Below the pieces are notes generated by a model that saw only the letters and a list, made by a program, of their open reading frames with translations, did not search any database and was not told the origin of the DNA. A DNA stretch of 64,000 bases from Naasia sp. SYSU D00057 (GTDB taxonomy: Bacteria > Actinomycetota > Actinomycetes > Actinomycetales > Microbacteriaceae). Both the position numbers and the translations under genes were made by a program. The DNA is taken from assembly GCF_017916505.1 (NCBI RefSeq), contig NZ_JAFMSZ010000001.1:1426001-1490000 (forward strand), read 5' to 3'. Positions within the stretch are counted from its first letter, which is position 1. Each line of letters opens with the position of its first letter. Positions 8,570 to 58,675 of this stretch are shown piece after piece.

Positions 8570-8786
8570 TTCAGCAGGCACGCAGGCCGCTCAGCAGGAA
8601 GAACCGGGCCTCCGGTGCCTGCTGAAGCCGTCCGGCGCCTGCTGAACCCACGAGGCACGCCGGCGCTCGGACGAGCAGCTCCCTAGCTCAGCAGACGGCC
8701 GACATCGCCCTCAGCAGGCACGGAGGCCCTCCAGCAGGCAGAATCGGGCCTCGGCAGCCTGCTGAGCAGGCGCCGTTCCTGCTGAG
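8570..8786. repeat. 77-bp nested-palindrome repeat, locus A (two units)
   Basis: Two complete 77-bp units lie at 8570-8646 and 8710-8786. Each begins TTCAGCAGG or CTCAGCAGG and ends CCTGCTGAA or CCTGCTGAG, with an inner CAGCAGG about 22 bases in and an inner inverted CCTGCTG. So each unit has two direct and two inverted copies of CAGCAGG. The locus fills the 307-bp gap between convergent mtnD and the monooxygenase gene. Other copies are near 44.9-45.3 kb and 58.6 kb. Confidence 0.85.
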
Positions 8787-8850
8787 CCGCAGTACCGGCG
8801 CACCCGAGCCCGCCTCCGCCGGCTCGGGGACCTCGGGCCGGCCGACCGGA

Positions 8851-10032
8851 TCAGCTGTACTTGCTCGGCGTCGGGTAGGCGCCGGTGAGCACGTACTCCC
8901 CCAGCTCCTTCGACTTGTAGACCACCGGGTCGTGCAGGGTGATCGTCCGCGCGTTCCGCCAGAACCGGTCGAAGCCGTGCGACGTCGTCGTGGCGCGCGC
9001 GCCGGTCAGCTCGAAGGCGCGGGACGTCACGTCGAGGACGGTGCGGGTCGAGTCGACCTTCGCCGCCGTGATCTCGATCGCCAGCTCGCCGCGCTCGCCG
9101 TCGGTGAGGTCCCACCCCTTGGCGACCGCCGCGGTCGCGAGCTCCGTCGCCCGCCAGACGAGCGCATCCGACGCACGGGTCGCGGCGACCAGCTCGCCGA
9201 GCGTGCCGAGGATGTACGGGTCCTTCAGCGCGCTGTCGACGCCGGAGGTCGGCCACGGCTTCGTCGCGCTGCGGGCGTAGCCGGCCGCGGCCTCGATCGC
9301 GCCTTCCGCGATGCCGACGTGCAGGTGCGACAGCAGCAGCTGGAAGAACAGGATCGACAGCGACGCGAAGGGCCGGTAGCCGGCGCCCTCCTGGTCGGAG
9401 GCGCCGAGCACGTGAGCGGCGGGCACCGCGACGTTCTCGAACGTCACCGAGCCGCTCGCGGACAGGCGCTGGCCCATGTTCTGCCAGTCGAGCGGATGCG
9501 TGACGCCGTCCGCCCTGCCGTCGATCACGATCGCGAGCTTCTCTCCCGTGCCCGCGACGGTGCCGCTCGCGGTGATCCGATCGGCGACGGAGGCGCCGGT
9601 GGCGAAGAACTTGCGGCCGGAGACGCGGTAGCCGTCGCCGTCCGGCGTGAGCACGAGGCCCTCGTCCCGCGGGTTGCCGGCGCCGCCCCAGAACCAGCCG
9701 TGCCGGGCGGTGTCGGCCCAGAGGTCGTGCACGCGGTCGGACCGGTCGTTGAGGATCGTCCGCCACGAGTTGAGGTAGTGGTAGGCGAGCACGTGGCCGA
9801 TCGACGCGTCAGCGCGGAGGATCGGGCGCACGACGCGCAGCACTGCCGACCAGTCGAGGCCTCCCCCGCCGAGCTCGGCCGGCACGAGGATCGGCAGCAG
9901 CCCCGCCTCGCGGATCAGCTGCACCTCCCGGTCCGGGTTCTCGTTCGCGGCGTCCCGGGCGACGACGTCCTCGCGCAGCCGCTCGGCGATCCTCTCCGCA
10001 GCGGCGACGGCCTCTTCCTCGGTGGTGATCAC
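8851..10032 (-). CDS. Flavin-dependent monooxygenase of the acyl-CoA dehydrogenase fold (DszC/SfnB-like)
   Basis: The 393-residue protein has the acyl-CoA dehydrogenase fold. Its C-terminal RNARTITLHDPVVYKSKELG and PTPSKYS resemble DszC, the dibenzothiophene monooxygenase, and SfnB-type proteins, not beta-oxidation enzymes. It lacks the catalytic Glu-Gly-Thr segment of true dehydrogenases. Such enzymes use reduced flavin and oxygen on organosulfur or other heteroatom compounds, which would suit a sulfur-scavenging locus. The GTG start has CGGAG and a TAGTCT box upstream. The substrate is unknown, and no flavin reductase is next to it. Confidence 0.75.
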   Translation of the reverse strand: MITTEEEAVAAAERIAERLREDVVARDAANENPDREVQLIREAGLLPILVPAELGGGGLDWSAVLRVVRPILRADASIGHVLAYHYLNSWRTILNDRSDRVHDLWADTARHGWFWGGAGNPRDEGLVLTPDGDGYRVSGRKFFATGASVADRITASGTVAGTGEKLAIVIDGRADGVTHPLDWQNMGQRLSASGSVTFENVAVPAAHVLGASDQEGAGYRPFASLSILFFQLLLSHLHVGIAEGAIEAAAGYARSATKPWPTSGVDSALKDPYILGTLGELVAATRASDALVWRATELATAAVAKGWDLTDGERGELAIEITAAKVDSTRTVLDVTSRAFELTGARATTTSHGFDRFWRNARTITLHDPVVYKSKELGEYVLTGAYPTPSKYS

Positions 10033-10090
10033 GACTCCGAAGACTAGCCGGGCGCTGCGGCAGCCTCGATTCGCGTTGCGGATCGCTACG

Positions 10091-10675
10091 TCAGCGCAGG
10101 CGGACCGCCAGCACGGCGGAGAGGGCGACCACGTCGACAGCCCGCACCGCGGCGGAGCGGCGTGGGAGCTCGAGGTCGTGCACGGCGAGGTCGAGGAAGT
10201 CGCGGCCGACCCGGTCGATGGTGCCGTCGAGCGCGCCGCTCGCGAGCTGGAGGCTGACCGGCACCCGGCGGCGCGCGAGGTCGCGCAGCACGAACGCGAG
10301 CCCGAGGCGGGCGGGCAGCGCGCGCTCGGCGTCCGCTGGAGGGTCGAGGGTGGCGGGGACGAGCCGCGGCGGCACGACGAGTGCGGCGACCGCCGAGAGC
10401 GGGACGATGACTCCGTCCGGTCGACCGTCGGCGGCCTCGCCGCTCAGCCAGTCCCGGCCGATCGTGCGGACGGTGACGGCGAGGGGATCCCCGGTCACGA
10501 GCCGCAGGCGCACCGGTTCGGAGGGCGCGGCCGCCACGACAGCGCAGAGGCGGTCGCGGAGGGACAGCCGGCCGAGGCGGAGCCGCTCCTCCTCCGCGCG
10601 CAGCTCGTCGCCCTCGGCGGTGAGCTCCTGTTCGAGCTGCCCCTCGAGGTCGTCGAACAGGCTGTCCCACCTCAT
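10091..10675 (-). CDS. Conserved hypothetical protein with two similar halves (possible Sm/SH3-like repeats)
   Basis: The 194-residue protein starts with a charged, probably coiled-coil segment (MRWDSLFDDLEGQLEQELTA). Two related strands-rich halves follow: LRLVTGDPLAVTVRTIGRDWL with VIVPLSAVAAL, and VSLQLASGALDGTIDRVGRDF with VRAVDVVALSAV. The pattern (a short hydrophobic strand, a G-turn, a TI-x-V/I-G-x-D/W strand, then a V-x-L-S-x-V strand) recalls Sm- or SH3-like barrels; this is my inference, not a family match. There is no signal peptide. The ATG lies eight bases after a TAGCCT box, so the mRNA may be leaderless. Confidence 0.65.
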   Translation of the reverse strand: MRWDSLFDDLEGQLEQELTAEGDELRAEEERLRLGRLSLRDRLCAVVAAAPSEPVRLRLVTGDPLAVTVRTIGRDWLSGEAADGRPDGVIVPLSAVAALVVPPRLVPATLDPPADAERALPARLGLAFVLRDLARRRVPVSLQLASGALDGTIDRVGRDFLDLAVHDLELPRRSAAVRAVDVVALSAVLAVRLR

Positions 10676-10768
10676 GCCCGCGAGGCTAGCCCCGGCTCCT
10701 CCCGGCCACACGCATTGTCCACACGCACCTGGGAGCCGCGTGCAGAGGGTCCGCCTAGCCTGTCCGGC
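10676..10768. promoter_or_regulatory. Mirror-image leaderless promoters between divergent genes
   Basis: TAGCCT (10756-10761) lies seven bases before the ATG at 10769 on the + strand. The same TAGCCT on the - strand (10683-10688) lies seven bases before the ATG at 10675. If these are -10 boxes, transcription starts one base before each start codon, with no room for a ribosome-binding site. Confidence 0.5.
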
Positions 10769-11645
10769 ATGCGCAGGGGGAACGCGACGATCGCGCGCGC
10801 GCTGGGGGCGGTGCTCGCGCTGCTGCTCGGCATGCTCGGCGCCGTCGCTTTCGCCGCCGCCCCCGCGGCCGCCGAGCGCCGATCTCGCGGCCCTGGCGAA
10901 CCAGGAGCGCTGGGCGAGCGGCCTGCCCGGGCTGCAGCGGAACGGCGACCTCGACCGGGTCGCCGCCGCCTGGGCCGCACAGATGGCGGCGGCCGGATCG
11001 CTCAGCCACAATCCGCAGACGGGCGCGCAGATCCCCGGCGGCTGGTCGAGGTGGGGCGAGAACGTCGCCCAGGGGCAGCGCTCGGGGGGCGAGATGCACA
11101 CGGCGTGGATGAACTCGCCGGGGCACCGCGCCAACATCCTCGGCGACTACACCGACGTCGGCATCGCCTTCGTCCGGGCGGGCGGAACGACCTGGGGCGT
11201 GCAGGTGTTCGCGAAGTACGCGGGCCATTCCGGGGTGGCGCCGCCCGTCGCCGCTCCGCCGGCCGCCGCCCCGCCGCCGGCCCCCGCCCCTGCTCCCGCT
11301 GCTCCCGAGGCCGAGCCTGCGCCGGCGCCTACCGAGGCGCCGAGCACCGCCTCGACCCCGACCCCGACCCCGACCCCGACGCCCACGCCCTCGGCACCCG
11401 CACCGGTCGCGACCCTCGACGCCCGCGAGGACCAGGAGGCGGCAGCCACCCCGCGGCCGACGCCGACCGCATCCGCCGCGTCAGCCGCCTCCGAGAAAGC
11501 CGACGGCGATCGGTCGGTGCCGGTCGCCGTCGTGGCCGCCGCGGGCGGCGGTGCGGGCCTCCTGCTGCTCGCCGGAGCGCTTCTGCTCCTCGCGCCCGTC
11601 CGGCGCCTGCTGGCGGGCTTCCGCCGCCCGCGGCGCCGCCACTGA
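10769..11645 (+). pseudogene. CAP-domain (SCP/PR1-like) surface protein, split by a one-base frameshift
   Basis: One frame from the ATG at 10769 encodes a clear signal peptide (MRRGNATIARALGAVLALL..., then FAAAPAAA). The mature protein lies in another frame from 10875: SADLAALANQERWASGL, SLSHNPQTG, WGENVAQG, WMNSPGHRANILGDYTDVG and WGVQVFAKY, the hallmark motifs of extracellular CAP proteins. A Pro/Ala-rich stalk with repeated TP follows, then a membrane segment and a basic tail (FRRPRRRH). Removing one base, the G at 10874, joins the signal peptide to the domain at a good cleavage site. So this is either a recent inactivation or a base-call error. If intact, it would be a wall-spanning, membrane-anchored protein. 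Confidence 0.75.
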
Positions 11646-11801
11646 CGCCCCTTCCGGGCAGTTATCCACATTCCGCATCGGTCATAGACACGCATGCCGC
11701 GGTGCTGGTTGAGTAACCGCACCCGATGACCCCCGTTCGGGGGGCTCCCGACCCTCGAATCATTGGCGACAACCCGATCCGTCCGCCCTGATGGAGTCGC
11801 G

Positions 11802-12236
11802 ATGACCTCACCCGTCCCTGCCGTGCGCGCAACGACGCGCGTCGCCCGCATCGTCCCCGACGACTACTTCGGACCGCAGCCCACGTCGGCCGATGCGCTC
11901 CCCGATCCGGTCCCCCTGCTCGAGAACCTCACGCGGTGCGTGATCGAGATCCTCGCGGGTGCCCGGGAGCTCGAGCAGATCGGCAGGTGGGTGGACGAGG
12001 ACGTCTACCGCCATCTGCTGAAGCGGGTCGTGCTCGCGTCCCGCGCCCGTGCGGTCCGCGGAGAGAAGGCAGCCCGGCCGGTGTTCACGATCGGCACGAC
12101 GCACGTGTTCTCGCCTCGGGACGGGGTGATCGAGGCCACCGTCACGGTGCGGGGCCGCACCCGCAGCCGCGCGGTGGCCCTCCGCCTCGAGGGCCTCGAC
12201 TCCCGCTGGCGCGCCACCGCCATCCACGTGCTCTGA
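11802..12236 (+). CDS. DUF6459 (Rv3235-like) protein
   Basis: The 144-residue protein has a short disordered start, a helix (LLENLTRCVIEILAGARELEQI), a WVDEDVYRHLLKRVVLASR segment and a strand-rich end (VIEATVTVRGRTRSRAVALRLE, RWRATAIHVL). This is the pattern of the actinobacterial Rv3235 family, which usually lies close to secA and whose function is unknown. The ATG is chosen for the GGAG upstream; an in-frame ATG at 11763 would add 13 residues. Here secA is some 13 kb away, beyond a catabolic island. Confidence 0.72.
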   Translation: MTSPVPAVRATTRVARIVPDDYFGPQPTSADALPDPVPLLENLTRCVIEILAGARELEQIGRWVDEDVYRHLLKRVVLASRARAVRGEKAARPVFTIGTTHVFSPRDGVIEATVTVRGRTRSRAVALRLEGLDSRWRATAIHVL

Positions 12237-12281
12237 GCCGGCGACGAGTCGCCACCGACGACCATCCAGCAGGGGTGCCGC

Positions 12282-13031
12282 TCAGGCTCGGCGGATGACG
12301 CTGAACGAGATTTCGTCCCCCCGGTGGTAGTCCTGGGCGAACAGGACCCGCCGCCCCTCCCGGGTGATCCCCACCTCGGTCACGAGCAGCCAGGGACCGA
12401 GCCCGTCCAGATTGTGTGCGGTCGCGATGTCGTCGGGCAGGTTGACGGCGGAGATCGTCGCCACCGAAGAGCGGATCTGGTGACCGTGAGCCTCCAGCGC
12501 TCCGGTGAGCGAACCGCCCCAGTCCCGATACGCGATAGGTCCGGGAAGAGCGTCGCGGACTATGACGTTCGCGCTGACCACCATGGGCCTGTCGTCCCCG
12601 AAGCGGATGCGGAGCAGCCTGATGACAGCGGTGCCGCCGGGGACCTCGAGAGCGTCTGCCTCTTCCTCGCTTGACTCCCCCTCCTCCACGCGCAGCACTG
12701 CGCTCGACACTCGGAAGCCACGTCCTTCGAGCACCTGGGTGATGCTTTCGTACTTCGTCATGGGGCGCTCGACCCGGAGCGACCCCTCGGCAGAGATGAA
12801 TCGCCCCTGTCCCTGCACTGCCGACAGGATCCCCTGCTGCTCGAGCAGCTTCAGCGCCTCACGCAGCGTCGGTCGGGAGACGCCGAACAGCTCGGACAGC
12901 TCCGCCTCGGTACTGAGACGATCACCCGGCTTGAGTCCCAATCGGGAGATGAGTGCGATCACTTCGTCCCGAAGGCGATCCACCCTCGTCGTCTTCGCGA
13001 TGCCTGCGACAGCGTCGGCGCTCTCCGGCAT
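12282..13031 (-). CDS. GntR-family regulator with UTRA effector domain (FrlR-like)
   Basis: The 249-residue protein has an N-terminal winged helix (LGLKPGDRLSTEAELSELFG and VSRPTLREALKLLEQQG) and a UTRA ligand domain from about residue 95 (VLRVEEGESSEEEA, VIRLLRIRFGDDRPM, AQDYHRGDEISFSV). This is the HutC/FrlR branch, which senses sugar phosphates or related metabolites. The ATG at 13031 follows AAGGAGAT. It diverges from the SIS deglycase gene; the gap holds palindromic sites that recur before the importer operon. It therefore probably represses both transcripts until a glycated-amine intermediate is bound. Confidence 0.88.
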   Translation of the reverse strand: MPESADAVAGIAKTTRVDRLRDEVIALISRLGLKPGDRLSTEAELSELFGVSRPTLREALKLLEQQGILSAVQGQGRFISAEGSLRVERPMTKYESITQVLEGRGFRVSSAVLRVEEGESSEEEADALEVPGGTAVIRLLRIRFGDDRPMVVSANVIVRDALPGPIAYRDWGGSLTGALEAHGHQIRSSVATISAVNLPDDIATAHNLDGLGPWLLVTEVGITREGRRVLFAQDYHRGDEISFSVIRRA

Positions 13032-13093
13032 TCCATCTCCTTCGGTCTCGAATCGCAAGCGTATCCGCCGGATGGCCCACAGCTGCGCTAATG

Positions 13094-13126
13094 TTGTCAG
13101 ACAGCGCATTGCTGTTGCCAGACAAC
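13094..13126. promoter_or_regulatory. Predicted GntR operator pair before the SIS deglycase gene
   Basis: Two sites lie in the divergent gap: TTGTCAGACA (13094-13103) and GTTGCCAGACAAC (13114-13126), 20 bp apart centre to centre. Both fit the palindrome GTTGTC-A-GACAAC, which is found almost perfectly again at 20251-20263 before the importer operon. The match to the regulator is inferred from position. Confidence 0.65.
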
Positions 13127-13146
13127 CACCAGTGAGAAGAGAACTG

Positions 13147-14160
13147 ATGTTGAACTTCGACGAGAAGCACTACCTGAGCGTCCAGTCCGGCGCCGTCGCT
13201 CTCGCCCAGCCGATCCACGACGCACTGAAGAAGGAACTCGACGCCGGCGTCGAGAACATCTTCTTCATGGGAGCAGGAGGGGTCGCGTTCCTCACGCTGC
13301 CCGCTGCACGGATCCTCCAGACGAAGTCGACCTTCCCCACGTTCGTCGACATGGCCGCCGAGGTGGTCCACACCGGGAACGTGAACCTGGGCCCGAAGTC
13401 GCTCGTACTGTTCCCGTCCGTCTCGGGCACCACGAAGGAAGCGATCGCCGCTCTGGAGTTCGCCAAGTCCAAGGGCGCCCGGGTGCTGACGCTCACCGGA
13501 ACCGCGGGAACCCCCCTCGCCGATCTCGCGGACATCAATTTCCAGAACGACGCCGCCGACGACACCTCGAGCGAGAACTTCTACCTGCAGACCCTGTTCA
13601 TCGCGCTCTCGATCATGCACTTGCGCGGGGAATACGACGAGTACGACGAAGTCATCGCCGAGCTGCAGACCCTCCCTCAACTCCTCGTCGACGTGAAGGC
13701 CGCGTTCGAGCCGCGCGCCGAGGCCCTCGCGCTCGAGATGAAGGACGAGCAGAACCACATCTTCACCGGGGCGGGCGGCGCCTGGTATGAGGCGTGGTAC
13801 TACGCCATGTGCATCCTCGAGGAGATGCAGTGGGTGTGGACTCGCCCCGTCCACGCCTCCGACTTCTTCCACGGGACCCTCGAGCTCACCGAAAAGGACA
13901 CGACCGTCTTCCTGTTCAAGGGCGAGGACGAAAGCCGACCGCTCGCAGACCGGGTGGAGCGCTTCGTTCCGACGGTGTCCGAGAAGCTGCGGGTCTTCGA
14001 CTCGAAGGACTTCGAGCTGAAGGGCCTGTCGCCCCGGACCCGCGCACTGGTCTCGCCGATCGTCTTCGCCGCGGCCTTGGAGCGTCTGAGTGCACACCTC
14101 GAGATCGTCCGGAACCACCCGCTGACGACGCGCCGCTACTACAAGAAGGGCGACTTCTAG
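13147..14160 (+). CDS. SIS-domain deglycase, FrlB-like (fructosamine-6-phosphate type)
   Basis: The 337-residue protein has two SIS (sugar isomerase) domains: FFMGAGGVAFLTLPAARIL and SVSGTTKEAIAALE, then IFTGAGGAWYEAWYYAM. Its C-terminal NHPLTTRRYYKKGDF and FLFKGEDESRPL resemble the fructoselysine-6-phosphate deglycase FrlB, which splits the phosphorylated Amadori product to glucose-6-phosphate and the amine. The FrlB catalytic pair in SGEFRHGP is here SDFFHGT, keeping His242 but with Asp239 for Glu. It diverges from the GntR gene, and a FrlD-like kinase is in the same island. The family is clear; the exact amine is unknown. Confidence 0.82.
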   Translation: MLNFDEKHYLSVQSGAVALAQPIHDALKKELDAGVENIFFMGAGGVAFLTLPAARILQTKSTFPTFVDMAAEVVHTGNVNLGPKSLVLFPSVSGTTKEAIAALEFAKSKGARVLTLTGTAGTPLADLADINFQNDAADDTSSENFYLQTLFIALSIMHLRGEYDEYDEVIAELQTLPQLLVDVKAAFEPRAEALALEMKDEQNHIFTGAGGAWYEAWYYAMCILEEMQWVWTRPVHASDFFHGTLELTEKDTTVFLFKGEDESRPLADRVERFVPTVSEKLRVFDSKDFELKGLSPRTRALVSPIVFAAALERLSAHLEIVRNHPLTTRRYYKKGDF

Positions 14161-14186
14161 GAGCAGCGCCTTCGGGTGAGCGAACA

Positions 14187-14218
14187 GGGGCGGCGGTCCG
14201 TATCCGGAACGCCGCCCC
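14187..14218. terminator. Hairpin terminator between SIS and HAD genes
   Basis: GGGGCGGCG (14187-14195) pairs with CGCCGCCCC (14210-14218) and is followed by TCCTTCGTCCTC. It lies 27 bases after the SIS gene stop, between convergent genes. Confidence 0.75.
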
Positions 14219-14295
14219 TCCTTCGTCCTCGCAGACGTCATGAGCCGGCCGCATGACGGCGGCCCAGCACTCCGTTTCCCCTCGGCGACAGCGCG

Positions 14296-14979
14296 TCACG
14301 CCGGGGCGTCGGAGAGTCCACCGGTGGTCCTCAGCTCCTCGATCAGCCTTGGCAACTGGGCCATCCTTTCGAACCGCGTCGCCTTCTGGCGACTTTCGAT
14401 CCGCGGAGCTTCCGTTCGGTAGGCCAGCACCCGCATCCCCGCGGCGAGCGCCGCGTTCACTCCGAAGGAGCTGTCATCGATTGCGATGCAGCGTTCCGGC
14501 GGGACCCTCAGCATCTCCGCGGCGCGCAGGTAGACGTCCGGCGCGGGCTTGCCGCGCCGGACATCCTCGGCGCTCGCGATGCATCCCTCGAACTTCGGCA
14601 GCAGCCCCGCGGCTTCGAGGCTGAGGCGGATTCGCGCGTGGTCGCTGTTCGAGGCGACCGCGATGGGGAGCCGGATCGCGTCGAGAGCGGCGGAGACGCC
14701 CTCGATCGACTGCACCCCGTCACGAAGCGCCTCATCGAGCCAATGCCGATAGGGCGCGAACCAGCCGGCTGGGAGCCGGCGGCCCAAGTTCTTCTCGAGC
14801 TCCGCAACGAGGAACTCCTGCGAGCACCCCGTGAATCTGCTCGTCACGGTGTCAAGATCGACGTTCCAGCCGAGGTCGGCGAATACCCGCTGCGACACGA
14901 CCGCGCTGAGCGACTCGCTGTCGACGAGCACACCGTCGCAGTCGAACACCACCGCATCGAAGAACGGCGCCCCGGACAT
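14296..14979 (-). CDS. HAD-superfamily phosphatase or phosphomutase (beta-phosphoglucomutase-like)
   Basis: The 227-residue protein has the four HAD motifs: FDCDGVLVDSE (nucleophile Asp and acid Asp), VASNSDHARI, GKPAPDVYLRAAEML and IDDSSFGVNAALAAGM. A helical cap lies between motifs I and II. This is the YcjU/beta-phosphoglucomutase subfamily, acting on small sugar phosphates. Two starts are possible: the ATG at 14979, or a GTG at 15012 that shares GTGA with the peptidase stop. A strong hairpin covers the ATG. It is the last gene of the importer-peptidase operon and may dephosphorylate or remodel a sugar phosphate from that pathway. Confidence 0.82.
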   Translation of the reverse strand: MSGAPFFDAVVFDCDGVLVDSESLSAVVSQRVFADLGWNVDLDTVTSRFTGCSQEFLVAELEKNLGRRLPAGWFAPYRHWLDEALRDGVQSIEGVSAALDAIRLPIAVASNSDHARIRLSLEAAGLLPKFEGCIASAEDVRRGKPAPDVYLRAAEMLRVPPERCIAIDDSSFGVNAALAAGMRVLAYRTEAPRIESRQKATRFERMAQLPRLIEELRTTGGLSDAPA

Positions 14980-14995
14980 TCCGTCCGGGGCGCCG
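14965..14995. promoter_or_regulatory. 13-bp perfect hairpin covering the HAD gene start codon
   Basis: CGGCGCCCCGGAC (14965-14977) pairs with GTCCGGGGCGCCG (14983-14995) around a five-base loop that includes part of the ATG. In mRNA this would bury the start at 14979. It favours the upstream GTG or coupling to translation of the peptidase gene. Confidence 0.55.
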
Positions 14996-15008
14996 ACATG
15001 ACTCCGCG

Positions 15009-17104: not shown

Positions 17105-17113
17105 GCTGTGCTC

Positions 17114-18151: not shown

Positions 18152-18155
18152 GGCA

Positions 18156-19160: not shown

Positions 19161-19201
19161 GCGTGAGAATGCCTTTCCTTGTATGGGGGGGGAACGGGGT
19201 G

Positions 19202-20194: not shown

Positions 20195-20250
20195 GTCGTC
20201 AAGCTCCTTTGCTTTTCGCGGTGCCTTGCGGCGAACCCAAGGTGAACATG

Positions 20251-20468: not shown

Positions 20469-20514
20469 TCCCACCGGCGGACAGGCGTCCGCCGGCAGAC
20501 CGCAAGGAGGCGCC

Positions 20515-44844: not shown

Positions 44845-45305
44845 TTCAGCAGGAACTCGCCGCGAATCCCCGCTCGTCAGGGACGCCGCGCCTGCTCGTG
44901 GACAGCACCTCGCCAGCGTCTTCAGCAGGAACGGAAGTTCCTCAGCAGGCAGATTCGGTCCGGTTTCGCCTGCTGAGCCGCTCCTGCGCCTGCTGAGGAC
45001 GAGCCGTTCCTGCTGAGGACCCTCGGGTACTTGGCGACCCCGCACAGGACGGGTTCAGCAGGAGCCGAAGTGCCTCAGCAGGCAGAATCGGACCTGTTTC
45101 GTCTGCTGGACCGCGTCCGTTCCTGCCGAGCACCGCAGCGGTTCCTGCTGGGGACGAGCCGTTCCTGCTGGAGAGTCGGGATTCCGTCCGCGCCGCCGCG
45201 GTTCCTGCCGGCCCCATGCAAGACCGGTTCAGCAGGCGCCGACGCAGCTCAGCAGGCAGGTCAGGGTGTGTTTCGCCTGCTGGACAGCGTCCGTTCCTGC
45301 TGAAC
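44845..45305. repeat. 77-bp nested-palindrome repeat array, locus B (three units plus fragments)
   Basis: Complete 77-bp units lie at 44921-44997, 45054-45130 and 45228-45304. Each begins TTCAGCAGG and ends CCTGCTGAG, CCTGCCGAG or CCTGCTGAA, with an inner CTCAGCAGGCAG and an inverted TTTCGCCTGCTG or TTTCGTCTGCTG. Extra half-units (GTTCCTGCTG) lie at 45141-45170, and TTCAGCAGG at 44845. The array fills most of the 568-bp gap between sahH and the DUF3499 gene. No reading frame in it looks real. Confidence 0.85.
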
Positions 45306-50624: not shown

Positions 50625-50630
50625 AGGGTC

Positions 50631-50636
50631 ACGCTA
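50631..50636 (-). promoter_or_regulatory. Leaderless -10 box (TAGCGT) of the glycosyltransferase gene
   Basis: On the reverse strand the sequence reads TAGCGT-GACCCT-GTG, so transcription should begin at the GTG codon. Confidence 0.5.
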
Positions 50637-50740
50637 GGCGCGGCGTCCCCCGCATCCGGGGAGGACACCCCGGGAGGCGGCGAGGATGCGCGGGCGACGG
50701 CCGCGCACAGCCCGGCGAACTGCCGGACAGAGGCAAACAG

Positions 50741-50768
50741 AAAGGGACGCCCCGGAGGGCGTCCCTTT
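50741..50768 (-). terminator. Terminator of whiB
   Basis: AAAGGGACGCCC (50741-50752) pairs perfectly with GGGCGTCCCTTT (50757-50768) around a four-base loop. On the reverse strand it is followed by a T-rich stretch, fitting intrinsic termination 17 bases after the whiB stop. Confidence 0.85.
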
Positions 50769-50784
50769 GTGCTGTGATCCCGGC

Positions 50785-51111
50785 TCAGACGGCCAGCTTG
50801 CGGAGCTTGCGGCGCTCACGCTCGCTGAGGCCGCCCCAGATGCCGAAGCGCTCGTCGTTCTGGAGCGCGTACTCGAGGCACTGGGCCTTCACCTCGCAGC
50901 TCGTGCAGATCTTCTTGGCCTCACGGGTCGAGCCGCCCTTCTCCGGGAAGAACGCCTCGGGGTCGGTCTGGGCGCACAGTGCGTCGCCCTGCCAGGCGAG
51001 GGCATCCTCGTCCTCGGGCTGGGCGGCCTTGCGAACTCCGGGAACGCCGAGGCGGACCGGGTCGACGAACCAGTCCCCAGGAACCCCACTCCTGATCTCA
51101 GTGATAGCCAT
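50785..51111 (-). CDS. whiB2: WhiB-family iron-sulfur regulator (WhiB2/WhmD-like)
   Basis: The 108-residue protein has the four cluster cysteines (Cys46, Cys69, Cys72, Cys78, with CTSCEVKAQC) and the GIWGGLSERERRKL turn and basic tail that define WhiB proteins. Its neighbours (glycosyltransferase, Rv3259-like, DUF3499) match those of WhiB2/WhmD, needed for septation. GGGGAGA precedes the ATG. A long intergenic region upstream suggests complex control. Confidence 0.92.
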   Translation of the reverse strand: MAITEIRSGVPGDWFVDPVRLGVPGVRKAAQPEDEDALAWQGDALCAQTDPEAFFPEKGGSTREAKKICTSCEVKAQCLEYALQNDERFGIWGGLSERERRKLRKLAV

Positions 51112-51346
51112 TGAAAAGTCTCCCCATGTGCACGCTGAGCTGGGTGCTCGTGTGCGTCTGAGGTAATTACAACCGTGGAATTACACCCACGTCAAGAGGC
51201 GGACGTTAGACCCTCAACCAACGGTCAAGGGTCGCGACGCGCCGGTAACAGAACGGAAATACAGGCGCAAATCGGAGTGCTTCCAGGCGCGCCTCAGGGC
51301 GCTTTCAGCGAGCACGAAGAGAAGAAGGAGAGGCGCACGTAGCGCG
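51112..51346 (-). promoter_or_regulatory. whiB upstream region
   Basis: This 235-bp gap between whiB and galE (both reverse) is less GC-rich than its surroundings. AATTACA occurs at 51165-51171 and 51179-51185, a 14-bp step. On the whiB strand these read TGTAATT and may include the -10 box or a regulator site. No gene is seen. Confidence 0.35.
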
Positions 51347-52312
51347 TCAAGCGGACGCGCCGCGCCGGGCCTCCCAGGCGCTCGAGACCATCTCGCTCAG
51401 GGTGTGCCGCATCGCCCAGCCGAGGTCGCGTGCCGCGAGCTCCCCGGTGGCCACGATGCGCGCTGGATCGCCGGGGCGGCGCGGCGCCACCTCCGGCTCG
51501 AAGTCGATGCCGGTGCCGGCCGCCATCGCGGTCATGATCTCCCGCACCGAGACGCCGTCGCCGCTGCCGAGGTTGTAGACGCGCTCGACGGGCAGGCCCT
51601 CGTCGAGCCGCTTGGCCGCCTCCACATGGGCCTTCGCGAGGTCCTGCACGTGGATGTAGTCGCGGACGCAGGTGCCGTCGGGCGTCGGATAGTCGTCGCC
51701 GTAGATTTTCGGCGTCCGCCCGTCGAGCAGCGCCTCGAAGACGAGCGGGAACAGGTTGTGCGGGCTCGCGTCGTAGAGGTCCGGGTATCCGGAGCCGACG
51801 ACGTTGAAGTAGCGGAGCGACGTGTGCTGCAGACCGGTGGCCCGGCCCTGGTCGCGGAGCAGCCACTCCCCGATGAGCTTCGACTCCCCGTAGGGCGACT
51901 CGGGGAGCGTCGGGGTCTCCTCTGTGACGAGGTCGGTGTCCGGCGTGCCGAAGACGGCCGCGCTCGAGGAGAAGACGATCTTGTCGACGCCGGCCTCGGC
52001 CATCACACCGAGCAGCGTCGCGGTGCCGGTGACGTTCTGCTGGTAGGTGTGCAGCGGGCGCTGGACGGACACCCCCGCGTACTTGAAGCCGGCCAGGTGC
52101 ACGACGCCCGAGATCTCGTGGTCCTCGAAGAGCTGCGTCATGCGCACCCCGTCGAGGATGCTCGCCCGCACGAACGCCGCGTCGTCGCGCACGAACTCGC
52201 GGATGCCGCTCGAGAGGTCGTCGAGGACGACGGAGGCGATCCCCGCCTCGGTGAAGGCCCGAACGACGTGGGCTCCGATGTAGCCGGCGCCGCCGGTGAC
52301 CAGCCATGCCAT
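51347..52312 (-). CDS. galE: UDP-glucose 4-epimerase
   Basis: The 321-residue short-chain dehydrogenase-type enzyme has VTGGAGYIGAHV for NAD, SSSAAVFG, the catalytic pair in SPYGESK, and VRDYIHVQDLAKAH. It interconverts UDP-glucose and UDP-galactose, giving galactose units for envelope polymers, perhaps for the nearby glycosyltransferase. The ATG lies six bases after TAGGCT on the reverse strand, so it is probably leaderless. Confidence 0.93.
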   Translation of the reverse strand: MAWLVTGGAGYIGAHVVRAFTEAGIASVVLDDLSSGIREFVRDDAAFVRASILDGVRMTQLFEDHEISGVVHLAGFKYAGVSVQRPLHTYQQNVTGTATLLGVMAEAGVDKIVFSSSAAVFGTPDTDLVTEETPTLPESPYGESKLIGEWLLRDQGRATGLQHTSLRYFNVVGSGYPDLYDASPHNLFPLVFEALLDGRTPKIYGDDYPTPDGTCVRDYIHVQDLAKAHVEAAKRLDEGLPVERVYNLGSGDGVSVREIMTAMAAGTGIDFEPEVAPRRPGDPARIVATGELAARDLGWAMRHTLSEMVSSAWEARRGASA

Positions 52313-52318
52313 GCGGCC

Positions 52319-52324
52319 AGCCTA
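52319..52324 (-). promoter_or_regulatory. Leaderless -10 box (TAGGCT) of galE
   Basis: The reverse strand reads TAGGCT-GGCCGC-ATG, with no room for a ribosome site; transcription would start at the ATG. Confidence 0.5.
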
Positions 52325-52379
52325 TCGACGCCGGATGGTCCACCGTCACGGCGAGGAGCCGGCACCGCCTCCGGCGGCC

Positions 52380-52526
52380 TCAGCGGGTCGACCACTGCGG
52401 ATACTCCTCGGCATGGCTGCCGGGCGGCGCGGACCGGGGGCCGTAGCCGTCGGTGCGCAGAGCGCCGACCGTGTCGAGGATCGCGGCGGCCGAGAGGAGG
52501 AGCAGAAGGGAGAAGAAGAGGAGCAT
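52380..52526 (-). CDS. Small single-pass membrane protein with DGYG motif
   Basis: The 48-residue product has one membrane helix (MLLFFSLLLLLSAAAIL) and a short cytoplasmic tail with RTDGYGPRSAPPG. Short proteins with a helix followed by DGYG and a Pro-rich end are, from memory, common in Microbacteriaceae, which supports it as a real gene; the role is unknown. The reverse complement upstream has CTCC/AGCG but no strong ribosome site. Confidence 0.55.
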   Translation of the reverse strand: MLLFFSLLLLLSAAAILDTVGALRTDGYGPRSAPPGSHAEEYPQWSTR

Positions 52527-52652
52527 GGCAGGAACGCTATGGTCGCGGAGAAGCCGCCACGAGTGGCAGGATTGACGCACTTCGTGCATTTACCGCCACA
52601 CTGGGTCCGACTGCGTCGCAGCGCCCGACAGGACAAGAGGAAGGGGCCCCGG

Positions 52653-53630
52653 TTGCTCCGGAAGATCGTCTGCATCGCCCTCCCCGGCATGGCCCACTTC
52701 GAGTTCGGCACCATCACCGAGGTGTTCGGGATCGACCGCACCGACATGGGCGGCCCGGGCTTCGAGTTCCACGTCGTCGCGGCCGACCCCGGCCCCGTGC
52801 CGACGAAGCACGGCCTCAAGCTGTACGTCGACGAGCCGCTCTCGGTGGCCGAGGACGCGGACCTCGTCGCCATCCCCGCCTACCTGTGGGAGGGCTTCGA
52901 CGACCGCGTGCTCGACGTGATCCGGCGCGCAGCCGCACGCGGCGCCTGGGTGCTCAGCGTCTGCAGCGGCGCCTTCTACCTGGCGGAGGCCGGCATCCTC
53001 GACGGCAAGCGCGCGACGACGCACTGGATGTACACGGATCGCCTCGCCGACCGCTACCCGGCCATCGACGTCGACCCCGACGTGCTGTTCGTCGAGCAGG
53101 GCAACATCGTGACGGGGGCGGGCACCGCGGCCGGGATCGACGCCGCCCTGCACATCGTGCGGAAGGAGCTGGGCGCCGGCGCCGCCAACGTCATCGCCCG
53201 GCGCATGGTCATCCCGCCGCAGCGCGACGGCGGCCAGGCGCAGTACATCGGCACGCCCGTCCCCGAGGTCCGGACGGACTCCTTCGCCGAGGTGATCGAC
53301 TGGATGCTCGAGCACCTCGCGGAGGACCTCACGATCGAGCAGCTCTCGCGGCGGGCGCTCATGTCGACCCGCACCTTCGCGCGCCGCTTCCGCTCGGAGA
53401 CGGGCGCCACACCGGCCGCCTGGCTCAACCGCCAGCGGATCATCCGCGCCCAGCAGCTGCTCGAGGAGACGACGCTCGGCCTCGAGCAGATCGCCCAGCG
53501 CACGGGCTTCGGATCGGCCGCCGTCATGCGGCACCACTTCGTGAAGGTGCTGCAGACGAGCCCCCTCGCCTACCGCCGCACCTTCGGGGCCACGGTGCCC
53601 GCCGGCGAGGAGGAGCTGCAGAGCGCCTGA
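52653..53630 (+). CDS. GlxA-type AraC-family regulator with DJ-1/PfpI domain
   Basis: The 325-residue protein has an N-terminal class I amidotransferase-like domain (RKIVCIALPGMAHFEFGTIT; conserved Cys in VLSVCSGAFYLAEAG) and a C-terminal AraC domain with two helix-turn-helix units (LTIEQLSRRALMSTRTFARR, LGLEQIAQRTGFGSAAVMRH). Such proteins respond to small molecules by an unclear mechanism. I choose the TTG at 52653 because GAGGAAGGGG lies just upstream and the protein then starts as relatives do; an ATG at 52539 would add 38 unconserved residues. Confidence 0.87.
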   Translation: MLRKIVCIALPGMAHFEFGTITEVFGIDRTDMGGPGFEFHVVAADPGPVPTKHGLKLYVDEPLSVAEDADLVAIPAYLWEGFDDRVLDVIRRAAARGAWVLSVCSGAFYLAEAGILDGKRATTHWMYTDRLADRYPAIDVDPDVLFVEQGNIVTGAGTAAGIDAALHIVRKELGAGAANVIARRMVIPPQRDGGQAQYIGTPVPEVRTDSFAEVIDWMLEHLAEDLTIEQLSRRALMSTRTFARRFRSETGATPAAWLNRQRIIRAQQLLEETTLGLEQIAQRTGFGSAAVMRHHFVKVLQTSPLAYRRTFGATVPAGEEELQSA

Positions 53631-53850
53631 CCCCCGGAACGGCGGCCGGAGCGGCCGGCGGCACGCCGCGCACTCCCGCCTCGCAGGAGGGTTGAGCAAA
53701 CCTCAGGGCGGCTCTGGGCTTTTTCTCAGATTCCTCTAGCGGAGCGGCTTCGCGCGCTGATATGTTCGCGCCGCGCCGTTACCCGAGCGGCGCGGGCTCT
53801 TGACGGCTACCCACCGTGCGCCCTCGCCTTCTGCCCTGAAGGACCCACCA

Positions 53851-56800
53851 ATGACGGTAGGACGAAGCCGCCGCGCGGTCTCCACTGTTGCCATCGCATC
53901 CACCCTCGCCGGCGGCCTCGTGTTCGTCGGCACCGCCCCCGCCTTCGCGGAGCCGGGCGGGGTGGTGATCTCCGAGCTCAACTACCACGCCGTGTCCGAC
54001 CTGGACGGCGACGACTTCATCGAGCTGGCGAACACCTCGGACGCGCCGATCGACATGTCCGGCTGGGCCTTCTCGGCCGGCATCACCGGCGTCTTCCCGG
54101 CCGGCACGGTGATCCCCGCCGGCGGGCGCTTCGTCGCCGGCAAGGACGCGGTTCAATTCCAGGCCACCTACGGCTTCGCGCCGGACTTCGTCTACGGCGG
54201 CAACCTCAGCAACGGCGGCGAGCAGGTGTCCCTGTCCACCGCCGACCCGGTGGCGAACCCGACGGCCGTGCTCATCGACACCGTGACCTATGCGGACGTG
54301 GCGCCCTGGCCCGGCTCCCCCGACGCACAGGGCCCCTCGCTCGAGCTGCGCGACCTGATGTCCGACAACACCGTCGCCGAGAACTGGGGCCCGAGCACCG
54401 GCACCGGCGGCACCCCCAAGGCCAAGAACTCCCTCGAGGGCTCGAGCGCCCCCGGCACGATCAGCGACGTGGCGGCCAGCCCGCAGCGTCCGGCCCCGAA
54501 CCAGGCCGTGCAGGTCACCGCGAAGCTGCCGACCGGCGCGACCGCCACCCTGAAGTACAAGGTCATGTTCGGCGCCGACGTCTCGGTTCCCTTCGTCGAC
54601 GACCTCGCCAGTCCGGGCGGCGCGAACGACGGCGTCTACGCCGCATCCATCCCCGGTCAGGCCGCCGGCAGCCTGATCCGCTACCGCATCGAGGCGACCG
54701 CCGGCGGTCAGCCGGTCTCGTTCCCGGTCGCGGGCGACACCATCAACTACAAGGGCGTCGTCGTCACCAACCCCGCGGCGAGCACCGAGCTGCCGACCAT
54801 CGAGTGGTTCATGGAGGACTCGGTCTACGAGGACCTCCGCGCGAACCACCGCGAGGACGACGTGCAGGGCGCGGCCGTCTGGTCGTACAACGGCGAGGTC
54901 ATCGACAACGTCCTGATGAATATCCGCGGCGGCACCTCGCGCACCCTCGACAAGAACAACTGGAAGGTCGAGCTGCCGAAGGGCTACGAGTGGACCATGG
55001 GCGGCGCGCTGCCCTACCCGCTCGACGAGTTCGCTCTGCAGAACTACGTGAACCCGTACGCCGACATGGCGTGGCAGACGGTCGACGAGGCCGGCGCCCG
55101 CGGGCTCACGATCCTGCCGGTGCGCACCCAGCGCAACGGCTCCTTCTGGAGCCTCGGCCGCATCATGGAGACCGAGGACGGCGCCTGGCGCGATGCGCAG
55201 GGCGTGGACGACTGGGCCATCTACAAAGGCGACGGCGGCGCCGTCGGCCGCTCCACCTCCGCCGCCACGCTCGCCGCGTCGGGCTGGCTCGACAAGAAGA
55301 CCCGCGAGGACGAGGACTTCACCGACGTCTGGACCCTCAGCAACACGGTCGACGCGGCCCCGTCCGCAGCACAGCAGGCGTGGATCTACCAGAACGTCAA
55401 CGTGCCCGAGCTGATCAATTACATGGCGATCAACTCGATCACTCGGCACTACGACAGCGGCTGGCACAACTGGTGGCTCGCCCGCGACACCGAGGGCACC
55501 GGCCGCTGGGAGATGTGGCACTGGGACCTCGACCTGACCTTCGGCCCGCCCTCCGCCGACGGCAAGGGCACCTTCCTCACCCCCGACTCGGGCAACAACT
55601 TCACCGAGGCGATGCTCGCCTACCCGGAGTTCCGGGAGATGTTCCACCGGCGGCTGCGCACCCTCGCGGACCAGTTCCTGCCGGTCGGCGAGTACGAGGC
55701 GCTCCACGACACCATCCGTGACCGGACGCTGCAGGAGTGGCGCCTCGACAACACGGCCTGGGGCACGCGCAACTCCTTCTACACCCCTGAGCGCAGCCGG
55801 GCCCGTCTCCTCGAGGGCCTCACGGATCGCCGCAACGTGATCAACAGCAACACGGCGCCCAACGGTCCGGTGCCGACCTCCCAGTCGGCGGACGCGGCGG
55901 TCGTGATCAACGAGATCATGTACAGCTCGGCCAACGCGAGCGGCGACTGGCTCGAGCTGGCCAACCCGTCGAACACGGCGGTGGACATCTCGGGCTGGAC
56001 GATCAGCGACGGCATCAACCTCACCGTCCAGGCGGGCACCGTCATCCCCGCGAACAGCCGCATGGTGTTCGTCGAGGACGACGCGGCCTTCCGCGCCGCC
56101 TACCCGGCCGGCAACCGCCTCGTCGGCGGCGAGTTCGGCGGCGGCCTGTCCGCCAACGGCGAGACGCTCACCCTCAAGGCCGGCGACCGCGTCGTCGACG
56201 CCGTGACCTACGGCGCGGCAGCGCCGTGGCCCGCGGCCACCGGCGGCCCCTCGCTGGAGCTGGTGAGCCCGACGGCCGACAACGCCGACCCGGCCAACTG
56301 GCGCGCCACCGCAGGCGCCAACGGCACCCCGGGCCTCGCCAACGCCGGCGCCACGCCGAACAACCCCGCCCCGACCGCGTCGTTCACCAACACGGTGAGC
56401 GGACTCCAGGTCAGCGTCGACGGCAGCGCGTCCAGCGACACGAACGGGACGATCGCGTCCCACTCGTGGAACTGGGGCGACAACACCGCCGCCGGCACGG
56501 GCGCCACCGCCACCCACACCTACGCCACGGCGGGCACCTACACGGTGACCCTCACCGTGACGGACAACGGCGGCGCGACCGCGACGAGCACCGCCTCCGT
56601 CACGGTGGGCGGCACCACCCCGCCGCCCACCGGCACCCTCGCCGCCGACACCTTCGGCCGGACCAGCACCAACAGCCTCGGCACCGCCGAGGTCGGCGGC
56701 GCCTGGACCGTGACCGGGACGTCGTCGAACTACGCGGTCAACAACGGCACCGCGAAGTTCACCACCGCGGCCGGGTCGGAGCGGATCGGATACCTCAACG

Positions 56801-58410
56801 GCGTTTCGTCGACCAGCACCGACCTGCGGCTGAGCGCGTCCTTCACCCGCCCGTCGAGCGGCACCGCCTACCTCGGCGTCTACGGCCGGCGCATTGGCAG
56901 CGACCACTACCGCGCCCGCGCCACGGTGAACGCGAGCGGAGCGGTCGCCCTGCAGCTGCAGCGCGGCACCACCACCCTGCGCTCGGGCACGGTGACGGGC
57001 CTGACGTTCAACACCGGCGACACCCTGCAGTTCCGAGTGCAGGTGACCGGCACCAACCCGACCACGTTCCAGGCCAAGGTCTGGAAGGCGGGCGGCACGG
57101 AGCCGGCGAACTGGACGCTGACCACGACCGACACCACCGCCGCCCTCCAGGCGGCCGGCTCGATCGGGCTCTACTCCTACTACAGCAGCGGCTCGACCCC
57201 GAGCCCGCTGGTCGTCAGCTGGGACAACCTCTCGGCGAGCTCGGTGGGCGGCGGCACGCCGACCAACACGCCCCCGCAGGCGTCGTTCACGAGCACCGCG
57301 AACGGCCTCACGGCGAGCTTCAACGGCTCGGGCTCGACGGATGCCGACGGCACCATCGCGTCCTACGCCTGGCAGTTCGGCGACGGCACGACCGGCACCG
57401 GAGCGACTCCGAGCCACGCCTACGCCACGGCCGGCACCTACCCGGTGACGCTCACGGTGACCGACAACGGCGGCGCGACGCACTCCGTCTCCCGCCAGGT
57501 GACGGTCGCGTCCACCCCGCCGGCGAACGCGGCTCCCACGGCCTCGTTCACCACCACGGTGGCCGGGCTCGGCGTGAACGTGAACGGCAGCGGCTCCACC
57601 GACTCGGACGGCACCATCGCGTCCTACTCGTGGAACTGGGGCGACAACACCGCGGCCGGCACCGGCGCGACGGCGACCCACACCTACGCGGCGGCAGGCA
57701 CCTACACGGTGACCCTCACCGTCACGGACAACGGCGGCGCCACCGCGACGACCACCCGCCAGGTGACCGTCACCTCCGCTCCCCCGGCCGGCGGCCCGCT
57801 CGCCGCGGACACCTTCGGGCGCACCGCGACGAACAGTCTCGGCACGGCGGAGACCGGCGGCGCCTGGACCGTCTCCGGAACGGCCTCCAACTACTCGGTG
57901 AACGGCGGGACGGGCAAGTTCTCGACCGCGGCGGGCGCCGAGCGGATCGCCTACCTCAACTCCGTCTCGTCGAACAGCACCGACCTCCGGGTCAGCGCGG
58001 CGTTCAACCGGCAGACCACGGGCACCGTCTACCTGGGCGTCTACGGCCGCCGGGTGGGCACCGAGTTCTACCGGGCCCGCGTCGTGGTGAGCGCGAGCGG
58101 GGCCGCCACGCTGCAGCTGCAGCGGGGCACCACGACCCTCCGGTCGATCACGATCCCGAACGTGAGCTTCGCGACCGGCGACACCCTCCAGTTGCGTCTT
58201 CAGGTGACCGGCACCAACCCGACGACCATCCAGGCCAAGGTCTGGGAGGGCGCCACGGAGCCGACCGCCTGGACGCTGACGACCACCGACACGACCGCCG
58301 CCCTCCAGACGGCCGGATCGATCGGGCTGTACTCCTACTACAGCAGCGGCTCGACCCCGAGCCCGGTCGTCGTCAACTGGGACAACTTGACCGCCTCCCG
58401 GGTCCAGTGA
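53851..58410 (+). CDS. Secreted modular LTD-CotH-PKD protein
   Basis: The 1519-residue protein has a Sec signal peptide ending FVGTAPAFA. Then come a lamin-tail domain (about 35-170, VVISELNYHAVSDLDGDDF), a linker domain, a CotH kinase-like domain (about 300-660, with IRGGTSRTLDKNNWKVELPK and MWHWDLDLTFGP near 555) and a second lamin-tail domain (680-800). The C-terminal part has PKD domains near 836, 1138 and 1225 (SWNWGDNTAAGTGATATHTY) and two concanavalin-like modules at 927-1130 and 1313-1519 (ADTFGRT, IGLYSYYSSGSTPSP). It has no sorting signal or membrane tail. AAGGA precedes the ATG. CotH domains can phosphorylate proteins; the rest suggests binding of polysaccharide or surfaces. Confidence 0.9.
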   Translation: MTVGRSRRAVSTVAIASTLAGGLVFVGTAPAFAEPGGVVISELNYHAVSDLDGDDFIELANTSDAPIDMSGWAFSAGITGVFPAGTVIPAGGRFVAGKDAVQFQATYGFAPDFVYGGNLSNGGEQVSLSTADPVANPTAVLIDTVTYADVAPWPGSPDAQGPSLELRDLMSDNTVAENWGPSTGTGGTPKAKNSLEGSSAPGTISDVAASPQRPAPNQAVQVTAKLPTGATATLKYKVMFGADVSVPFVDDLASPGGANDGVYAASIPGQAAGSLIRYRIEATAGGQPVSFPVAGDTINYKGVVVTNPAASTELPTIEWFMEDSVYEDLRANHREDDVQGAAVWSYNGEVIDNVLMNIRGGTSRTLDKNNWKVELPKGYEWTMGGALPYPLDEFALQNYVNPYADMAWQTVDEAGARGLTILPVRTQRNGSFWSLGRIMETEDGAWRDAQGVDDWAIYKGDGGAVGRSTSAATLAASGWLDKKTREDEDFTDVWTLSNTVDAAPSAAQQAWIYQNVNVPELINYMAINSITRHYDSGWHNWWLARDTEGTGRWEMWHWDLDLTFGPPSADGKGTFLTPDSGNNFTEAMLAYPEFREMFHRRLRTLADQFLPVGEYEALHDTIRDRTLQEWRLDNTAWGTRNSFYTPERSRARLLEGLTDRRNVINSNTAPNGPVPTSQSADAAVVINEIMYSSANASGDWLELANPSNTAVDISGWTISDGINLTVQAGTVIPANSRMVFVEDDAAFRAAYPAGNRLVGGEFGGGLSANGETLTLKAGDRVVDAVTYGAAAPWPAATGGPSLELVSPTADNADPANWRATAGANGTPGLANAGATPNNPAPTASFTNTVSGLQVSVDGSASSDTNGTIASHSWNWGDNTAAGTGATATHTYATAGTYTVTLTVTDNGGATATSTASVTVGGTTPPPTGTLAADTFGRTSTNSLGTAEVGGAWTVTGTSSNYAVNNGTAKFTTAAGSERIGYLNGVSSTSTDLRLSASFTRPSSGTAYLGVYGRRIGSDHYRARATVNASGAVALQLQRGTTTLRSGTVTGLTFNTGDTLQFRVQVTGTNPTTFQAKVWKAGGTEPANWTLTTTDTTAALQAAGSIGLYSYYSSGSTPSPLVVSWDNLSASSVGGGTPTNTPPQASFTSTANGLTASFNGSGSTDADGTIASYAWQFGDGTTGTGATPSHAYATAGTYPVTLTVTDNGGATHSVSRQVTVASTPPANAAPTASFTTTVAGLGVNVNGSGSTDSDGTIASYSWNWGDNTAAGTGATATHTYAAAGTYTVTLTVTDNGGATATTTRQVTVTSAPPAGGPLAADTFGRTATNSLGTAETGGAWTVSGTASNYSVNGGTGKFSTAAGAERIAYLNSVSSNSTDLRVSAAFNRQTTGTVYLGVYGRRVGTEFYRARVVVSASGAATLQLQRGTTTLRSITIPNVSFATGDTLQLRLQVTGTNPTTIQAKVWEGATEPTAWTLTTTDTTAALQTAGSIGLYSYYSSGSTPSPVVVNWDNLTASRVQ

Positions 58411-58412
58411 AC

Positions 58413-58493
58413 CTCAGTCGGCGGGGCGGGAGGCCCGCCGGCTGAGCCAACGGAGGTCCCCGGTGCTCCGCCCCTGCGGCGGACACCGGGGAC
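58413..58493. terminator. Two successive hairpin terminators
   Basis: CTCAGTCGGCGGG (58413-58425) pairs with CCCGCCGGCTGAG (58434-58446) with one mismatch, starting two bases after the CotH protein stop. GTCCCCGGTG (58456-58465) pairs with CACCGGGGAC (58484-58493). A 77-bp repeat locus follows. Confidence 0.75.
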
Positions 58494-58555
58494 TTCCATG
58501 TCTGCGGCCGCCCTCAGCAGGCCCGTCCTTCGGTTCAGCAAACACCGACGTGCGG

Positions 58556-58675
58556 TTCAGCAGGCACGGAAGTGGTCCAGCAGGCGAACGACGTGCGCTT
58601 CAGCAGGCACGGAAGTGGTCCAGCAGGCGAAATCGGACCGGATTCGCCTGCTGAACCTCCGCTGTTCCTGCTGAA
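58556..58675. repeat. 77-bp nested-palindrome repeat, locus C (one unit plus a partial copy)
   Basis: The complete unit is 58599-58675, starting TTCAGCAGG and ending CCTGCTGAA. Inside, CAGCAGGCGAA pairs with TTCGCCTGCTG. The first 33 bases are repeated exactly at 58556-58588. The locus lies between the convergent CotH-protein and manA genes. Confidence 0.85.

Follow-up and report, generated by a model that had tools for sequence, protein, structure and literature searches.

What maintains a repeat of exactly 77 bp at three separate intergenic loci of one bacterial chromosome, and how did its copies get there? The question arises from a 64,000-nucleotide stretch of Naasia sp. SYSU D00057, a member of the Microbacteriaceae. 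This whole stretch, hereafter the window, corresponds to C11:1426001-1490000 of a genome of 3,363,985 bp in 21 contigs, called the source genome below. A preliminary description of the window interpreted the repeat as a nested palindrome under selection for structure, and likened it to repetitive extragenic palindromes (REPs) and bacterial interspersed mosaic elements (BIMEs) moved by a single-strand transposase. Our analysis instead points to a gene of the DUF559 family that is bracketed by the same repeat elsewhere in the genome. We propose, with a probability of about 60%, that each repeat unit is a double-stranded, dimeric target of approximately 73 bp for the DUF559 nuclease, and that the enzyme helps to scatter the units, which would be REP-like elements unable to move on their own.

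Six complete units are present in the window, at 8570..8646, 8710..8786, 44921..44997, 45054..45130, 45228..45304 and 58599..58675, and none is assigned a strand. The preliminary description gave these coordinates and the fixed length correctly, and the six units align without gaps over all 77 bp. They share the skeleton CAGCAGG-N13-CAGCAGG-N19-CCTGCTG-N13-CCTGCTG, which corresponds to word spacings of 20/26/20. All 28 heptamer bases and the spacing are exact in five units (word positions 8572, 8712, 44923, 45230 and 58601), and the remaining unit, with its word position at 45056, carries two heptamer mismatches. The inner arms of the 58.6 kb unit, CAGCAGGCGAA and TTCGCCTGCTG, pair perfectly, as had been claimed. 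The heptamer CAGCAGG occurs 64 times in the window versus 9.7 times (standard deviation 3.1) in shuffled sequence, and none of 100 shuffles reaches 64, so that the motif is well above background. Gene calls made by a codon-usage script of our own agree that two of the three loci are in convergent gaps. The first two units share one gap, which has an ARD-family gene on one side and an acyl-CoA-dehydrogenase-type gene on the other, and the sixth is in the gap 3' of a phosphomannose-isomerase-type gene. The 45-kb locus lies between two minus-strand genes, where the third unit occupies the gap between an S-adenosylhomocysteine-hydrolase-type gene and its minus-strand neighbor.

A genome-wide count, which the preliminary description had recommended, yields 76 units in the source genome at up to three mismatches and 69 at up to one, and a reversed-pattern control gives no matches at either threshold. 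Units with at most one mismatch are found in only 5 of 398 Microbacteriaceae genomes, all from the same genus, where five of the nine genomes sampled carry 69, 26, 10, 7 and 5 units. The exact skeleton also appears in 24 stretches of an 84,980-species collection that may omit records very near the window's own genome. Of these, 14 are from a Naasia metagenome-assembled genome, six from Naasia sp. SYSU D00948, three from Amnibacterium flavum and one from N. aerilata. The 89 pattern matches in viral contigs include no relative.

For closer study we used the 68 units that have at most four mismatches in the window and in 36 fetched stretches of the source genome, which were picked for pattern matches. 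Every one of the 68 lies outside genes, in a total of 36 gaps that comprise 20 convergent, 15 tandem and 1 divergent arrangements. As a baseline, the 54 neighboring gene pairs of the window include 11 convergent and 10 divergent pairs. Across the same DNA, the 34.0 kb of gaps contain 391 exact heptamers and the 183.6 kb of genes 113. In gaps, heptamers on the same strand are most often 20 bp apart (64 and 81) and those on opposite strands 26 bp (65) or 46 bp (116) apart, and no distance peak is evident in coding DNA. These data support the view that the units form a dispersed, intergenic, 3'-end-biased family resembling REP and BIME elements.

Gene order around the window is well conserved in relatives, while the gaps that hold units vary among species. 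Four relatives (G068, G185, G232 and G338) contributed 33 gap rows, among which four gaps appear twice, leaving 29 distinct gaps, and only one of the 29 has an ortholog-level neighbor beside any of the 36 unit gaps of the source genome (L036 with L091; flanking gene 93% identical). The ahcY-type gap of the window is a partial case, in that N. aerilata also carries CAGCAGG ladders there, with different spacings. In other relatives, the same two window gaps hold similar layouts built from other words (such as CGACAGG or GCGGATCAGGA) or nothing. The repeat family is scattered and fast-changing, and the placement of its units differs in sister species.

The constancy of length amid variable loops had suggested a conserved fold. 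Word and spacing are indeed constant, but base pairing between the arms is not. The outer arms match at 6.09 of 13 positions within units versus 6.36 between units (68 units; 95% of shuffles are at or above the observed value), and the inner six bases match at 2.88 positions within units versus 3.04 between. Smaller sets of 17 (G185), 6 (G068), 5 (G232) and 8 (G016, another genus) units likewise reveal no significant arm pairing, with a lowest p value of 0.09 for the inner bases of G016. Thus, the expected compensatory changes in the arms are absent from the 68 units and from all four additional sets, and selection on a folded structure is not borne out. This result concerns the variable arms; the invariant heptamers might still pair, which cannot be judged by covariation.

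By contrast, the words themselves hardly change. Recent tandem copies differ at 26 of 1036 heptamer sites and at 341 of 1665 spacer sites, and between clusters the divergence is 2.3% for heptamers versus 49.8% for spacers. These values indicate that word and spacing are constrained, as at a protein site on double-stranded DNA. Our collection allowed up to 4 mismatches of 28 in stretches preselected by pattern matches. However, 49 units have no heptamer mismatch, 16 have one, three have two and none has three or four, and so the mismatch limit alone cannot explain the conservation. Given the lack of covariation in the arms, word and spacing seem to be what is under selection, rather than a folded stem.

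A screen for genes bracketed by units recovered a DUF559 gene in the source genome and a broken copy in G185. A candidate cognate gene bounded by the same repeat, of the kind that the preliminary description thought worth seeking, is thus present, although it encodes a DUF559/Vsr-like protein rather than a Y1 transposase. The intact gene is outside the window, at C11:21787-22563 (L102:2485-3264, minus strand; also called the L171 locus). It codes for a protein of 259 amino acids that matches PF04480 at 28.3 bits versus a cut-off of 20.6. Six 20/26/20 units flank it, three on either side, and the locus has no 19/26/19 unit. The source genome also carries a paralogue (L179, C17:61664) that is 55% identical and scores 13.5 bits with PF04480, under the cut-off. 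Three 19/26/19 units with the word CAGCAGGACTT are spread over both sides of the paralogue, with no 20/26/20 unit at this locus, and the same 19/26/19 subfamily is present at other sites in the genome.

Homologues are found in eight of the nine genus genomes (22 match rows, including two for fragments of the broken G185 gene), and 45 of 70 sampled Microbacteriaceae genomes carry a DUF559 match at E 1e-20 or better, with 127 matches in these 45. The common site in six genus genomes is beside an sdhB-like gene. In the source genome this site holds the paralogue, and the CAGCAGG-flanked gene is elsewhere, next to a Der-like GTPase gene; the names sdhB and Der reflect our reading of the protein sequences rather than search results. 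Pfam matches among the DUF559 proteins are to PF04480 and PF18741 (DUF559 / REase_MTES_1575), and one homologue has a weak AbiEi_4 match (E 0.011). PADLOC returned no match for two of three proteins, and for the third a local match to DpdF (E 3.2e-5) covering 46 of 1078 positions.

Residues D193, E203, H210 and D219 are invariant in all 20 aligned proteins and are probably catalytic. A profile of these 20 proteins matches PDB 3HRL, 'Endonuclease-Like Protein' (E 1.9e-11), and PDB 3R3P, 'Mobile intron protein' (E 6.6e-5), which we take to be the homing endonuclease I-Bth0305I. The C-terminal domain of the DUF559 proteins is accordingly predicted, from sequence, to be a Vsr-like nuclease related to the EDxHD enzymes. 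One other gene has units on both sides, namely a 128-amino-acid gene of G185 (L040:1561-1947), and a gene 33% identical to it adjoins a unit-bearing gap next to the DUF559 gene of the source genome.

The association between repeats and DUF559 genes extends across the genus and the family. As a measure we used the longest exact word common to the left and right 500-bp flanks of a gene, with a mark at 14 bp. Shared words of at least 14 bp are present at 32 of 47 DUF559 genes (16 of 20 in the genus and 16 of 27 elsewhere). The corresponding figures are 21 of 516 for control genes, 4 of 109 for controls matched by gap length and 25 of 564 for swapped flank pairs, the last of which include pairs of related genes. 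The difference from gap-matched controls is highly significant (Fisher p 1.4e-17), and three of the four control hits are due to another repeat of G185. This separate repeat, CCCTTCATTTCGCT..CAATGGGCGG, flanks unrelated genes (L142:7378-9864 and L146:15616-16933).

Several choices define this comparison. Control genes were taken from G068, G338, G308, G364, G273, G185, G232, G132, G001 and G002, and the gap-matched test adds the window. The borders of DUF559 flanks are the ends of search matches and may deviate from true gene ends by a few codons. Locus L207, where the contig stops close to the gene, was left out of this comparison and of that between words and protein relatedness. The 47 do not include the broken gene of G185 (L183, L191), L193 and L252 duplicate L171 and L179, and L222-L225 were excluded. 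Moreover, the longest-shared-word statistic was picked after a first statistic, a count of two-sided 8-mers, had been seen. That first statistic separates the groups more weakly, with at least three such 8-mers at 8 of 20 genus DUF559 genes versus 9 of 549 controls, and at 1 of 28 genes in other genera.

The flank word differs between genes and tracks the lineage of the DUF559 protein. Other DUF559 genes of the genus have their own words on both flanks (CAACAGG, CGGATCCGGA, AATTCAGGA, AATGCAGGA and GGATCAGGA), and words in other genera include GAAATGCAGGA, CTAACTCAGGA and GTGTAGG, among others. Six genus genomes carry a gene of the CAGCAGG clade, which is broken in one of them, and five of these six have CAGCAGG units with at most one mismatch; the three genus genomes that lack such a gene have none. 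Direct pairs of GGATCAGGA number 33 in G132, 12 in G068, 12 in G232 and 6 in G338, and these four genomes have GGATCAGGA in DUF559 flanks. Elsewhere there are three pairs in the source genome, one in G273 and none in G185, G308 or G364, the last of which is 68% complete. In G016, GTGTAGG dyads occupy 11 places (8 convergent, 3 tandem, 0 divergent) and are absent from 11 other genomes; one lies on either side of a DUF559 gene and another is about 440 bp from a second DUF559 gene. Among cross-genus protein pairs with at least 50% identity, four of seven share at least three flank 8-mers, versus about 2% of pairs at 30-40% identity. Overall, the correlation between word likeness and protein relatedness is weak (rho 0.147), and none of 2000 permutations reaches it.

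Many units are prolonged as ladders, with words at steps of 20-22 bp that are each directed toward the dyad center. The preliminary description placed partial units beside the complete ones; in many cases, the 77 bp form the core of a more extended ladder. In the window, an extra word adjoins the first unit at 8563-8569. A minus-strand word sits 20 bp past the third unit (45009..45015), and two more inverted words follow the fourth at steps of 22 and 20 bp (45144..45170, minus strand). Plus-strand words at 58515, 58558 and 58578 (58515..58584) run into the sixth unit. Near 560 kb of C11 in the source genome, L075:2009-2640 holds about seven tandem copies with a step near 94 bp, of which five satisfy the full 20/26/20 spacing.

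Some other palindromic features were encountered along the way. The ahcY-type gap of G308 (L135:19316-19500) contains a near-perfect long palindrome in place of the CAGCAGG ladders of the source genome and N. aerilata. CGACAGG was considered as a dispersed family and rejected, since it has no exact nested match in the nine genomes, and the lone CGACAGG dyad of G068 is therefore without a family explanation. The type III restriction enzyme EcoP15I has the site CAGCAG, which is contained in the CAGCAGG word. A word-blind finder of nested dyads scores more often in gaps than within genes, although it also picks up chance matches in GC-rich DNA. Among its hits are nested hairpins with 19/23/19 or 19/25/19 spacing and the words GCGAGCG or CGTGTCGCAAC, whose arms are apparently well paired and to which no enzyme is linked (L162:7055, L162:2956 and L159:11258 in G132; L131:17578 and L133:7544 in N. 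aerilata).

How might a DUF559 nuclease give rise to such a family? Each monomer would bind one pair of words, placing the dimer on the dyad, and the enzyme might then cut or nick at or near a word. Repair could copy or duplicate units, leaving dispersed copies, tandem clusters and 20-bp ladders, and each DUF559 lineage would read its own word.

Several points weigh against this proposal, in which we infer binding, cutting and mobilization by DUF559 from sequence. We saw no insertion whose ends are defined. In G308, CAGCAGG words accompany a gene of the clade, yet this genome carries no unit with at most one mismatch anywhere, and G185 retains about 26 units even though its DUF559 copy (L183/L191, C8) is broken. 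The three GGATCAGGA pairs of the source genome occur with no DUF559 gene that has this flank word. In addition, 15 of the 47 DUF559 genes fall below the 14-bp mark, and bracketing is absent at 11 loci outside the family, apart from one 17-bp match that hinges on an alternative start. Of 122 matches in other genera, flanks were available for 28 loci, mostly the top-scoring one in each genome, and 27 of these were used; the control genes represent ten genomes rather than all sampled genera. Finally, the Caulobacter DUF559 protein VsrA has been proposed to serve in mismatch repair (PMC12907096), and so a DUF559 domain alone is no proof of a role in repeat handling.

The same findings might be explained if the DUF559 gene were a parasite akin to a homing endonuclease, with units that pre-exist for some other reason serving as its target, so that the gene settles in clusters without spreading them. 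The profile match to a mobile-intron endonuclease speaks for this reading, and clade genes reside between units at two sites, beside the sdhB-like gene in six genus genomes and beside the Der-like GTPase gene in the source genome. However, the words track the enzyme lineage, and two families of words abound only where the genome has a gene flanked by them. Repeats driven by the enzyme are therefore the easier account, and we consider the parasite unlikely.

We are similarly doubtful that the units are immobile binding sites with a host function, such as chromosome organization, insulation or 3'-end regulation, to which DUF559 binds. The strong constraint on word and spacing would suit this role, as would the preference for convergent gaps (20 of 36 in the source genome with one divergent, and 8 of 11 in G016 with none). 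Against it, the match of L036 with L091 is the only one among the 29 gaps of the relatives, the ahcY-type gap of N. aerilata agrees in part, and orthologous gaps in other relatives hold other words.

A structured RNA or a bidirectional terminator, which the location at 3' ends and the dyad symmetry might bring to mind and which the preliminary description entertained, is very improbable, given that covariation is lacking in all five unit sets and that the window matches no Rfam family. At the 45-kb locus, a simple scan also found no terminator-like site, a weak result because shuffles expect only 0.3. Least probable of all is that the units are classical REP elements mobilized by a Y1 enzyme, the REP-associated tyrosine transposase (RAYT). 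The units are palindromic, intergenic, clustered and dispersed, but PF01797, the family of the gene that the preliminary description proposed to look for, is found in none of the nine genus genomes (the same search is positive in 5 of 14 control genomes), and among the 136 outer flanks of the 68 units, taken as 15 bp each, only 3 contain GTAG.

If units are indeed scattered by a DUF559 nuclease, the other words and genes could be instances of a class of repeat-enzyme pairs in Microbacteriaceae. DUF559 nucleases would read their own words in nested dyads phased at 19-20 bp and would spread these dyads through the chromosome in trans, making the system a functional analogue of the REPtron that is based on a double-strand nuclease. 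Word and enzyme would co-evolve, and therefore new pairs would keep arising. We regard this extension as an even bet. Were it true, bacterial chromosomes would contain a second, independent population of enzyme-driven palindromic repeats beside REP/RAYT, and an unrelated enzyme would be at hand for testing the manner in which such repeats spread and the reasons for which their hosts put up with them. A possible role would also emerge for a widespread protein family whose function is unknown, and there would be a natural set of nuclease-target pairs that vary in word but keep the long dyad geometry. In the open-access literature we found no link between DUF559 and repeats, and no mention of this repeat.

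Three known systems invite comparison. VsrA of Caulobacter shares the DUF559 domain, but the proteins described here are linked to repeats whereas VsrA is proposed for mismatch repair (PMC12907096). The EDxHD homing endonuclease I-Bth0305I is reported to dimerize on a target just short of 60 bp (PMC3943268), and the 73-bp dyad, each half of which carries two words, would fit an enzyme that dimerizes on a site of this length. The nuclease domains are related, as judged by the 3R3P profile match, and a long dimeric target is proposed for the units as well, although we saw no intron and the chromosome has tens of target-like copies. REP/BIME elements and their TnpA-REP (RAYT) enzymes form REPtrons, in which the palindromes are intergenic, the enzyme gene is among the repeats, and enzyme and repeat co-evolve (PMC8266576). 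The Naasia system differs in its enzyme, which is DUF559/Vsr-like, with no Y1 gene found in the nine genus genomes, and in its element, a 73-bp double dyad with fixed 20/26/20 spacing and arms that do not covary. It also has no GTAG tag at CAGCAGG units, although the G016 word GTGTAGG happens to include GTAG. What stands of the likeness to REP/BIME elements first suggested for the window is that the Naasia units, like REPtrons, are dispersed, intergenic and clustered in tandem, with an enzyme gene among them.

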